A stretch of 64,000 nt of DNA. Source: Candidatus Tenderia electrophaga (lineage in GTDB: Bacteria; Pseudomonadota; Gammaproteobacteria; Tenderiales; Tenderiaceae). Where the stretch lies: contig CP013099.1 in NCBI GenBank assembly GCA_001447805.1, positions 806,001 to 870,000 on the forward strand, given 5' to 3'. A program made the position numbers and the translations under genes. A model generated the notes under the pieces. That model was not told where the DNA came from, ran no database searches, and saw nothing but the letters and a program-made list of their open reading frames with translations. This document shows, piece by piece, positions 43,836-46,994 of this stretch; the first letter of the stretch is position 1, and every line of letters begins with the position of its first letter.

Positions 43836-45167
43836 CTATGCCCCCAACTGTTTAATGAAGACCTTCGAGCGGCGCTGATAGTTGTATAAGGATTTGCGCT
43901 GCACCGGCAGGTTATCAATATCGCCCGCCGCATAGCCGCGTTCCTGAAACCAGTGCGCGGTCTGGGTGGTGAGTACGAACATGCGCTCGATGTTGCGCGC
44001 CTTGGCCACCTTTTCGGTATACGCCAGCAGCTCGCCGCCACGGTTGGCCTTGCGGTAATCGGGATGCACCGCCAGGCACGCCAACTCCGCTACCTGTTCG
44101 TCGGTATACGGATATAGAGCGGCGCAGGCGACCACCGTGCCGTCACGTTCCACCACAATGAAGTGGTCGATCTCCAGTTCCAGTTGTTCCCGTGAACGAC
44201 GGACCAGGACGCCGCTCTCCTCCAGCGGTTTAATCAGGCTGAGAATGCCGCCCACGTCATCGATGTTGGCCTGACGTGTGGCCTCAAACTGGCCCGCCGT
44301 AATCAGTGTGCCGATGCCGTCGCGGGTAAACAATTCCTGCAGCAGGCAGCCGTCGATGCGGCGATCGATCAAGTGGGTGCGAGTCACGCCGCGCCGGCAG
44401 GCCTGCACGGCATGGCGTAGATAAGCCAGCTCATCGTCGCTGATTTGCTGGCGCTGCAGCAATTGCTGGGCCTGTTCGGTATTTAATTCGCGCATCAGGC
44501 GCTGTTCGGCGTCGTGAATGCCGTCGCCCTCGGTCAGAAACATCAATTTGTCCGCCTGCAGGGCGACGGCAATGGCGGTGGCCACTTCATTGGCGGTGAG
44601 ATTGAAGGTTTCACCGGTGGGCGAGTATCCCAACGGCGATGCCAAGACGATGGCACCGTCATCCAAACGTTGCTGGATGGCCGTGGCGTCGATGCGGCGC
44701 ACCTGGCCGGTGTGGCAATAGTCCACGCCGTCGCGCACGCCCAGCGGTTGGGCGGTGACGTAGTTGCCCGAGGCGACCCGGATGCGCGCCCCGGCCATGG
44801 GTGAGTTGGCCACCCCCATTGAGAGCTGTGCCTCGATCTCTACGCGCACGCTGCCCACCGCCTGTTTTACACAGGCCAACGCGATGTCGTCAGTGATGCG
44901 CAGGCCGTTGACATAATCGATCTGGGCGCCTTGCTGATTCACCCGTTGCTCGATCTGGGGCCGGGCGCCGTGCACCAGCACCAGGCGAATGCCCAGGCTG
45001 TTGAGCAGGGCGATATCATGAACCAGACTGTGGAAATTACAGTCCGCCACCGCCGCGCCATCGAAGGCCAGTACAAAGGTGCGGCCGCGAAAGGCGTGAA
45101 TATAGGGTGAGGACTGGCGAAACCAGTGGATGAAGGCTTGTTTGTTACCGTCTGCGACGCTGCTCAC
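43836..45167 (-). CDS. argA: Amino-acid N-acetyltransferase (N-acetylglutamate synthase) ArgA
   Basis: This is a 443-residue two-domain enzyme. The amino-acid-kinase-like regulatory domain (about 1-290, with LVLVHGARPQIEQRVN and FNLTANEVATAIAVALQADK) binds arginine. The C-terminal GNAT domain (about 295-443, AELACLAVHPDYRKANRGGELL) uses acetyl-CoA to acetylate glutamate, the first step of arginine synthesis. The start is GTG 45167 with AAGGAG 9 nt upstream. A good promoter lies at 45312-45340. argJ and argB are also in this window but not in the same operon. Confidence 0.96.
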   Translation of the reverse strand: MSSVADGNKQAFIHWFRQSSPYIHAFRGRTFVLAFDGAAVADCNFHSLVHDIALLNSLGIRLVLVHGARPQIEQRVNQQGAQIDYVNGLRITDDIALACVKQAVGSVRVEIEAQLSMGVANSPMAGARIRVASGNYVTAQPLGVRDGVDYCHTGQVRRIDATAIQQRLDDGAIVLASPLGYSPTGETFNLTANEVATAIAVALQADKLMFLTEGDGIHDAEQRLMRELNTEQAQQLLQRQQISDDELAYLRHAVQACRRGVTRTHLIDRRIDGCLLQELFTRDGIGTLITAGQFEATRQANIDDVGGILSLIKPLEESGVLVRRSREQLELEIDHFIVVERDGTVVACAALYPYTDEQVAELACLAVHPDYRKANRGGELLAYTEKVAKARNIERMFVLTTQTAHWFQERGYAAGDIDNLPVQRKSLYNYQRRSKVFIKQLGA

Positions 45168-45311: not shown

Positions 45312-45340
45312 GTATTACCGCAAAATATCATAAATTTCAA
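45312..45340 (-). promoter_or_regulatory. Promoter of argA
   Basis: On the minus strand TTGAAA (45335-45340) is 17 nt from TAATAC (45312-45317), a good sigma70 match. The predicted start near 45305 gives a leader of about 138 nt. Confidence 0.6.
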
Positions 45341-45374
45341 CAAGTTTAATTCTGAGTATTTTGGTAAAAAAAGC

Positions 45375-45404
45375 TTGAAAAAAGTCTTGGTGGTTTGCTA
45401 AGGT
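45375..45404 (+). promoter_or_regulatory. Promoter candidate for the small-ORF pair
   Basis: TTGAAA (45375-45380) is followed after 18 nt by TAAGGT (45399-45404), which is preceded by TGC as an extended -10. The sequence upstream is AT-rich and could act as an UP element. The -10 is imperfect, so this is tentative. Confidence 0.4.
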
Positions 45405-45487
45405 TTTGCTAGCCCCGTAGGACACCGTCCCGGTGGTTGGTTGGGGGACCATAGCAAACACTAAATAATCGCATTGATGAGATCACA

Positions 45488-45589
45488 ATGGATCAACGTA
45501 AGAGCTTGGTAATGACTTTTGGTACCGTCGCTGGAATTCTGGGCATTGTTGTTTCTGTCGCCCTGTTTGCCACTGAGCTGATGGCTTAA
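45488..45589 (+). CDS. Small single-helix membrane protein A, 33 residues (unrecognised)
   Basis: ATG 45488 to TAA 45589 encodes 33 residues: a charged N-terminus (MDQRKS), then one uninterrupted hydrophobic helix ending in ATELMA. The distal part, GILGIVVSVALFATELMA, aligns with the end of the next small ORF. The Shine-Dalgarno is weak (GATGAG at about 7 nt). The gene has its own promoter candidate, a paralogous neighbour and a strong terminator downstream, which argues that it is real despite its size. I do not recognise the family. A membrane subunit, regulator or toxin-like peptide are all possible. Confidence 0.68.
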   Translation: MDQRKSLVMTFGTVAGILGIVVSVALFATELMA

Positions 45590-45597
45590 GTCTAACG

Positions 45598-45614
45598 TTC
45601 GGAAATCTTCCGAA
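45598..45614 (+). promoter_or_regulatory. Hairpin abutting the ribosome-binding site of small ORF B
   Basis: TTCGGAA (45598-45604) and TTCCGAA (45608-45614) form a perfect 7-bp inverted repeat with a 3-nt loop. Its right arm runs into AAGGGGGA (45613-45620), the Shine-Dalgarno of small ORF B. It could modulate translation or protect processed RNA. Confidence 0.5.
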
Positions 45615-45625
45615 GGGGGAACGCC

Positions 45626-45736
45626 ATGTACAGAGAAATCAAACGACCCGTTATGGAGCATACGCTCTCGCTGCTAATCGGCGGACTGGGAGCGGTAATT
45701 TCGTTGTCACTGGTAACAAGCCAGTTAATGGTGTAA
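45626..45736 (+). CDS. Small single-helix membrane protein B, 36 residues (unrecognised)
   Basis: ATG 45626 to TAA 45736 encodes 36 residues with a basic N-terminus (MYREIKRPVMEH) and one hydrophobic helix. Its last 18 residues, GGLGAVISLSLVTSQLMV, match the end of small protein A at 8 of 18 identical positions, with mostly conservative differences. The ribosome-binding site AAGGGGGA is very strong, far better than that of protein A. The two look like products of a tandem duplication. The Lys/Arg-rich N-terminus predicts N-in orientation. No known family is recognised. Confidence 0.72.
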   Translation: MYREIKRPVMEHTLSLLIGGLGAVISLSLVTSQLMV

Positions 45737-45775
45737 TAAGCTAGAAGAAATATATCCACCTAAATCAGAATGTTG

Positions 45776-45809
45776 AAAAGGGAGCAGCGCAATCTGCTCC
45801 CTTTTTTTT
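45776..45809. terminator. Strong terminator after the small-ORF pair
   Basis: AAGGGAGCAG and CTGCTCCCTT form a perfect 10-bp stem with a 6-nt loop, followed by T8 on the plus strand. Four A residues precede it, so it may also serve ttcA on the minus strand. Confidence 0.92.
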
Positions 45810-45818
45810 GTGGCGCTG

Positions 45819-46652
45819 TCAAAACGGGTTGGCCTGGAGTGCGCTTGTCTCGGTGTCGCAATCTCGGCGCTGTTGTTCCAGGTGCTTGAAGTCCCAATGG
45901 CGTTTGTCCATGAGCTGGCTCGGCTGCAGCGCCTGCAGGGCATGGAGCATGTTGCTAGGGATCTTTTCGTTTTCCGCCGCCAAATCCCTGATTAATTGTT
46001 TGATGCGTTGGCGCGCCAGGTTCTCCTGCGAGCCGCACAGGTTGCAGGGGATAATGGGGAATTCCATTAATTCGGCGAATTCGGCGATATCCTGCTCCTG
46101 GCAGTAGACCAGCGGTCGGATCACGATATGGTCTTGGCTGTCAGTGAGCAATTTGGGCGGCATGGATTTGATCTCGCCGTTGTAGAGGATGGACATCATC
46201 AGGCTTTGGATCAAATCGTCGCGATGGTGGCCCAGGGCGATTTTGCTGAAACCGTGCTTTGCTGCATAGCTATAGATGCTGCCGCGGCGCAGGCGTGAGC
46301 ACAGAGAACAATACGTCTTGTTCTCGGGCACCTTTTCGATGACCACGGAGTAGGTGTCTTGTTTGTAGACTTCGAAGGGAATTCTGTGCTGCTCCATCCA
46401 GCTGCGCAGGCCGCTGTCGTTCCAGCCCGGCTGGCCCTGGTCGAGAGTGAAGGAGAACAGCTCGAACTTGTTATTGCTGCGCTTGCGCAATTGATTGAGC
46501 AGATGGAGCAGGGTGAAGGAGTCCTTGCCGCCCGACAGGCACAGCATGACCCGATCACCTTTCTGGATCATGTTGAAATCGGCGATGGCCTTGCCGGTGT
46601 AATGCAGTAGTTTCTTTTCCAGTTTGGCCAGCTGGGTCGAAGGGGTGCTCAT
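45819..46652 (-). CDS. ttcA: tRNA 2-thiocytidine(32) synthetase TtcA
   Basis: This iron-sulfur PP-loop enzyme thiolates cytidine 32 in certain tRNAs. From ATG 46652, with GGAG upstream, it is 277 residues. The PP-loop SGGKDS is at residues 40-45. Two CxxC motifs, CSLC and CNLC, supply cluster ligands; [20 protein letters not shown] is characteristic. An upstream in-frame ATG at 46724 would add 24 residues of no family similarity. The C-terminus is short and the gene ends next to a strong terminator. Confidence 0.96.
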
Positions 46653-46994
46653 GGGACGCTCCGGGTGAGGCGGTGACTGTGTAGGAAGGGCGGATTTTAC
46701 GCCATTTAAGCCGCCTGACGCCAACCATGCTCGTGCTGTGGATAGTGGATTCGCGTTTATCTCTTGCCTTGGGCGGGCTCAATTTGCCAAACCTTTTATC
46801 ACGGGGATAAGTGATGGGCGACGCAGCGCCGCCCATCGCCTGAGTCTGCGCCGCACGGGCGGCTTATCGCAACGCATGAGGTTCGACTTCCCGGCAGAAA
46901 AGGGGGATTGAAACGGTGTTTATGCGTCGCGCCGGAGGCCTAAATTTGCTATCTTTGTGGTCCGTACGAATCAAGCAGACCAGAGGTTCAGACC
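46653..46994. other. Divergent intergenic region between ttcA and ilvD
   Basis: This 342-nt stretch shows no supportable gene. A hairpin GATGGGCG/CGCCCATC (46813-46820 and 46830-46837) lies in the middle. An extended -10 (TGCTATCTT, hexamer 46950-46955) is a possible ilvD promoter, without a good -35. No ilv-type leader peptide rich in branched-chain codons was found. Confidence 0.5.

Follow-up and report, generated by a model that had tools for sequence, protein, structure and literature searches.

Several described systems provide a frame for tiny proteins with one hydrophobic helix. MgtS, AcrZ and MgrB are small regulators that bind membrane proteins, the type I toxins TisB, Ibs and Ldr are tiny hydrophobic peptides that sometimes occur in tandem, and the two subunits of cytochrome b559 hold haem between one-helix chains. 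CydY (YnhF) is described as a one-helix oxidase subunit whose gene lies between ydhP and purR, apart from that of its complex (PMC6853902), and YohP as an E. coli protein of 27 residues that lowers the membrane potential and keeps a conserved place beside dusC (PMC12719787).

The gene pair considered here belongs to Candidatus Tenderia, an uncultured bacterium studied for electrode electron uptake coupled to CO2 fixation (PMC5371394). Neither "argA" nor "small protein" is mentioned in the main text of that metatranscriptome report. Literature searches returned no paper on small proteins in Tenderia, and nothing about the pair was found among the matches listed for argA, ttcA and small protein. 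As judged from sequence comparison, the two genes, A and B, constitute a real, conserved and undescribed family of membrane microproteins that is tandem-duplicated here and whose mechanism we infer.

A gene pair between argA and ttcA

In the window (the whole 64,000-nucleotide stretch of DNA analysed), gene A (45488..45589, plus strand; MDQRKSLVMTFGTVAGILGIVVSVALFATELMA) is read as an ORF for a one-helix microprotein of 33 residues and gene B (45626..45736, plus strand; MYREIKRPVMEHTLSLLIGGLGAVISLSLVTSQLMV) for a paralogue of 36 residues, coordinates and lengths being those of the initial annotation. The ORF list and the comparison of loci place the pair, as had also been described, between a divergent gene on the minus strand (43836..45167), presumably argA, for N-acetylglutamate synthase, and a convergent gene on the same minus strand (45819..46724), presumably ttcA. 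When the two peptides are compared, B corresponds to A plus a basic (K/R) N-terminal extension of nine residues. A of the window carries an insertion of six residues at its N-terminus relative to the 27-residue A of its relatives, made up of six codons after the start codon (45488-45511) and followed by an inner ATG at 45512. This insertion, together with a Shine-Dalgarno sequence weaker than in four congeners, suggests that A of the window may be less translated or may start at the inner ATG. The ribosome-binding site of A reads GATGAGA in the window versus GAGGAGA in six of eight relatives. Upstream of B lies AGGGGG, a strong site, and most A and B genes across the loci display clear ribosome-binding sites.

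Transcription of the pair would depend on a putative plus-strand promoter at 45375..45404, composed of a -35 element (TTGAAA, 45375-45380), an 18-nt spacer ending in TGC and a -10 element (TAAGGT, 45399-45404) of the extended type. The mechanical sigma-70 scan did not list it, and its conservation with small variations in all nine pair loci lends weight to the promoter candidate proposed at the outset. Just 5' of the -35 element, an A/T-rich block on the plus strand (GTTTAATTCTGAGTATTTTGGTAAAAAAAG, 45344..45373), presumably a possible UP element, is largely kept in the aligned nine Tenderiaceae loci. With the transcription start predicted from the -10 element, the 5' untranslated region would span about 77 nt (45411..45487, plus strand). 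Sequence reading and comparison with relatives place in this leader a plus-strand hairpin with a GGGG loop (45438-45451), which might act as a target of CsrA or another GGA-binding regulator. In seven of nine genomes such a hairpin, with differing stems, recurs 30-36 nt upstream of the start of A, and its stem is unremarkable against shuffles in eight of nine. Folding of the 5' leader is no better than in shuffles for most of 15 sequences, with z < -2 only in G007 and G009.

On the 3' side, direct reading of the plus strand reveals the strong intrinsic terminator that had been announced (45776..45809), consisting of a hairpin at 45776-45801 followed by eight T to 45809; it was also not listed by the mechanical scan. 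An equivalent GC-rich stem with a T-run lies 3' of B in all nine loci when the alignment is inspected by eye, and its position in the window could also suit the convergent ttcA. The Rfam scan gave sub-gathering matches only; the best, to STnc320, overlaps the terminator on the minus strand (29.5 bits versus 50, E 0.0021). Codon adaptation was considered as a sign of high expression and dropped: A scores 0.60 and B 0.44, below the mean of 0.73 for 38 ORFs of the window, with B unusually low, and the ribosomal genes used as reference do not stand out in score from ordinary ones.

Selection, structure and common descent

A and B are genuine protein-coding genes, as comparison at the codon level shows. 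Inside the genus, dN/dS (Nei-Gojobori) ranges from 0.045 to 0.155 for A (six pairs among four genomes, the window sequence being left out for its insertion) and from 0.010 to 0.088 for B (nine of ten pairs from five genomes, the tenth being saturated). These values, 0.01-0.16 in all, point to purifying selection on both genes, even though many synonymous distances exceed 1 and individual ratios are rough. Changes at codon positions 1/2/3, summed over genome pairs, number 22/6/48 for A and 50/20/153 for B and are concentrated at third positions. Lengths are constant as well, B having 36 codons in nine of nine loci and A 27 codons in nine of ten, a count that takes in G046 of another family (f37). 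The tenth locus is the window itself: the 33 residues initially reported for A are right for this sequence, yet they are the exception. Short ORFs arise often by chance and several overlap this same stretch, so A and B might be fortuitous frames within a small RNA or leader. The third-position excess, the low dN/dS, the constant length and frame and the conserved start sites argue against this, and such an origin is scarcely credible.

The suggestion that the two genes derive from a duplication has gained considerable strength. Their last 18 residues are identical at eight positions, as originally counted, and comparison of the A set with the B set by hhalign yields a probability of 97.4% (E 1.2e-11, 30 columns). 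In composition-preserving shuffles (400 per sequence), none of 400 reaches the real score in any of nine genomes, whether the B profile is run on A or the A profile on B. On this sequence evidence A and B are paralogues of common descent. In nine A and seven B rows the 27-residue core always has small residues (G/A/S/C) at positions 10, 13 and 17; their location on a single helical face is not significant (permutation p 0.22-0.54). The polar residue near the C-terminus varies in kind: E predominates in A, B has Q, family f72 has H and family f102 has Y.

Both peptides have the anatomy of one-helix membrane microproteins (fewer than about 50 residues with a single hydrophobic helix), as first described, and would insert in the membrane. 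B is predicted by AlphaFold2 from its single sequence as one helix over residues 3-35 (mean pLDDT 87, pTM 0.42), and the best 17-residue hydropathy is 2.26 for B and, in six relatives, 2.37-2.64 for A. That no known family was recognised at the start has been confirmed by searches of Pfam, NCBIfam, PHROGs and PDB sequences. A, B and the relatives submitted gave no Pfam or NCBIfam match over the curated cut-off and no significant PHROGs E-value, no CydX or YnhF model appeared among the Pfam and NCBIfam matches, and profile A4 had no match to PDB sequences at E up to 10. Sub-threshold matches were those of G312b to PF21088 MS_channel_1st (E 0.0032, 17.9 bits versus 23.1), of G312a to MotA_ExbB (E 0.063) and of A to phrog_17665 (E 0.5).

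Distribution in Tenderiaceae and beyond

Genome searches demonstrated that the pair extends beyond the genome and the genus of the window. It occurs in tandem and in the same order in nine of the 11 Tenderiaceae genomes searched (G000-G004 and G007-G010), and no credible match to A or B was obtained in the genome search of the other two, G005 and G006 (77% and 85% complete). The search match for B of G009 is weak (E 0.33); position, length and alignment led us to count it as B. A divergent argA adjoins the pair in all nine loci, and a ttcA-like gene lies downstream in eight, the copy of G007 being only 48% identical; no such gene was found in G008 within the DNA examined downstream of the pair. 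The profile search detects one locus per genome in four Tenderiaceae genomes, and a megablast comparison of 45340-45830 with plasmids found nothing.

Upstream of argA in other families, similar peptides have a patchy presence. Only three of 72 named argA loci with upstream DNA carry the pair (G003, G004 and G008); in two others there are small hydrophobic ORFs, but of another type. Among 124 argA-upstream regions, which represent the argA genes most like that of the window plus family f72 and no random sample, 17 have, on the divergent strand, a small hydrophobic ORF preceded by a ribosome-binding site, versus four on the control strand. These 17 comprise four from Tenderiaceae, five from f72, two from f102, two from f65, three from f22 and one from G024, which was judged a chance ORF. 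Relatives are located upstream of argA in one of two f37 genomes with upstream DNA (G046, whose A-type peptide lies 10 bases from the contig end; none was found upstream of argA in G188), in five of 13 from f72, in two of two from f102 and, with less certain kinship, in two of three from f65. Four of the five f72 carriers have a tandem pair at this position; in the fifth, G376, the first gene alone was seen. Further f72 genomes have argA next to ttcA with no peptide found in the interval, which indicates that this neighbourhood is independent of the peptides.

Profile searches support these kinships to different degrees. With the Tenderiaceae profile, no shuffle of 400 reaches the score of G046 or of the second genes of f72, and the first genes of f72 are partly recognised (0, 1, 3, 58 and 82 of 400), those of G381 and G378 (82 and 58) being not significant. 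The same profile does not recognise f102 (59 and 161 of 400), which is recognised by the f72 profile (0 of 400). Peptides of f65 are borderline, with 2 and 3 of 400 shuffles reaching the score of the widest profile and 13-50 those of two narrower ones. A FastTree of the 27-residue cores is compatible with the duplications in f72 and Tenderiaceae as one event or two.

For the f22 peptides, none of three profiles revealed similarity to the family (190-289 of 400 shuffles score as high); what they have in common with the A/B loci is position and promoter. They are hydrophobic, of 36-37 residues and ending in AHFPAGH, and lie at the same place behind a near-identical promoter with no detectable similarity to A or B (L183 336-450, L186 333-444 and L188 333-444, as offsets from the argA end of the match). 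Their promoter reads CTTGCAAAATACC(C/T)AAC(T/C)ATTTTGCTATGGT, versus CTTGAAAAAAACTTTAGTCTTTTGCTATGGT in G007. As a separate observation, several argA matches contain one in-frame stop each (TGA, TAA), among them L170 (G312) and L183 (G031), which may reflect sequencing error or overrun of the match.

A pattern derived from the promoter matched 14 of 196 argA-upstream regions and had no site on the reverse strand of the 196. A small membrane ORF comes after all 14 sites; this agreement is partly circular since some of these sequences had served to build the pattern. It misses four of the five f72 carriers and G309, and in the fifth f72 carrier it precedes the second gene. A stricter version occurs once in the whole genome of the window and at one site in each of five of nine carriers, always at this locus, with none in the other four. 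Across 369 genomes it yields 24 sites in 23 genomes versus 15 for the reversed pattern, and is thus not specific alone. Seven of the 24 sites precede a small membrane ORF, six of them at argA. Two sites away from this setting deserve mention: at L306 (G312:C25, ~2811) a similar promoter, distant from argA, precedes a hydrophobic ORF of 32 residues, MAQKSASDHDFILVTSLAAIVLVVAAVAKVVM, and at L310 (G134:C8, ~29368) the pattern lies 60 nt before a GTG-started ORF of 96 residues, which to our eye looks like a DsrC/TusE protein.

At the practical level, the family was recognised only through position, promoter and codon pattern compared across genomes. Position together with promoter, the latter a pattern taken partly from the same sequences, constitutes a practical finder for peptides too short for homology search. 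Given the interest of this organism for electron uptake, a conserved membrane component without a name belongs on the Tenderia gene list.

Possible functions and comparison with known systems

The reading that we tentatively favour, at somewhat less than even confidence, is that A and B are bicistronic microproteins of the inner membrane which bind one another as well as a larger membrane partner. Both would insert in the inner membrane as one-pass helices with a cytoplasmic N-terminus, an orientation suggested by the K/R residues in the extension of B and by the lack of any basic residue after the helix in either peptide. They would then pair and act as accessory helices on a larger membrane protein, in the manner of CydX or CydY/YnhF, although the complex would be a different one. 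The genes may have remained beside argA by descent, with no service to arginine synthesis. This proposal is consistent with the pair in nine of 11 Tenderiaceae genomes, the low dN/dS, the paralogy, the single helix of B and the fixed small residues. Against it, no partner gene adjoins the pair, the small residues form no significant single face, the polar C-terminal residue varies in kind, codon usage does not point to strong expression, and the patchy presence outside Tenderiaceae would require a partner that is non-universal or able to work without A and B. The isolated position of the genes is no objection, since CydY/YnhF is itself encoded apart from its oxidase.

The main rival and best alternative model is that of free membrane-acting peptides like YohP, which would insert into the inner membrane, reduce its fluidity and potential and slow metabolism, all with no protein partner involved. 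The same size class, a conserved place beside a tRNA-modification gene (dusC for YohP, ttcA here) and the lack of a partner gene near the pair speak for this model, but two diverged copies kept adjacent under purifying selection would suggest specific contacts rather than bulk action on the membrane, which makes it an unlikely though serious explanation. Helices that, like MgtS, AcrZ or MgrB, tune the activity or stability of one resident transporter or sensor kinase would have the same anatomy as accessory subunits, and the patchy spread outside Tenderiaceae fits an accessory regulator; co-occurrence, examined for CydA and KdpA, yielded no target, and we consider this role rather improbable. 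The initial annotation had named complex subunits, regulators and toxin-like peptides as options, and while the first two are still in play, the third has been weakened. Small hydrophobic tandem peptides on a short mRNA with a terminator would suit type I toxins under antisense RNA control, and there is one antisense promoter-like site at 45776-45749. However, antisense promoter scores in a consensus scan are at shuffle level in nine of nine genomes, the mechanical scan found one antisense site versus 0.9 expected, the interval from promoter to start codon, a potential site for an antisense gene, is little conserved in sequence, and both proteins are under purifying selection at one locus per genome in the four Tenderiaceae genomes, all of which renders toxins very doubtful.

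A broader proposal, which we regard as a long shot, considers the stretch upstream of argA as an ancient microprotein slot. A specific promoter and leader would have been inherited across several gammaproteobacterial families, and the one-helix peptide behind them would duplicate, diverge beyond recognition or be exchanged, a behaviour suggested by f22, where the promoter is retained in front of a peptide without detectable similarity. Both f72 paralogues have a histidine towards the C-terminal end of their helix, and by analogy with cytochrome b559 a shared cofactor such as haem could be held between two one-helix chains.

Set against the described systems, A and B resemble the type I toxins TisB, Ibs and Ldr as tiny hydrophobic peptides that are in tandem at times, and differ from them in being fixed beside argA, in their purifying selection and in an antisense promoter that is not above shuffles. 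The likeness to KdpF consists of one helix and a sub-threshold match of A to TIGR02115 (9.6 bits and E 0.97 for a cut-off of 26.85), whereas KdpA is found in only two of the 22 genomes searched and is absent from the other 20, that of the window included; this distribution rules out Kdp as an obligate partner. A and B also resemble CydX and CydY of E. coli cytochrome bd, small proteins with one membrane helix (CydX has 37 residues), the gene of CydY lying apart from the complex (PMC6853902). A and B differ from them as a tandem paralogue pair, in that profile A4 has no PDB chain match and in that several near-complete carriers have no CydA. The genome of the window has CydA; in all, it is present in seven of 22 genomes counted as carriers with f22 and f65 included, or six of 17 without them, and was not found in G009, G010, G111 (98-100% complete), G309, G031, G178 and G285 (99-100%), and these carriers rule out cytochrome bd as an obligate partner. 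YohP, compared here by its description in PMC12719787, differs in being described as a single gene with mdtQ and dusC as neighbours instead of argA and ttcA; likeness to the pair lies in its 27 residues and in a chromosomal position that is conserved and close to a gene for tRNA modification.
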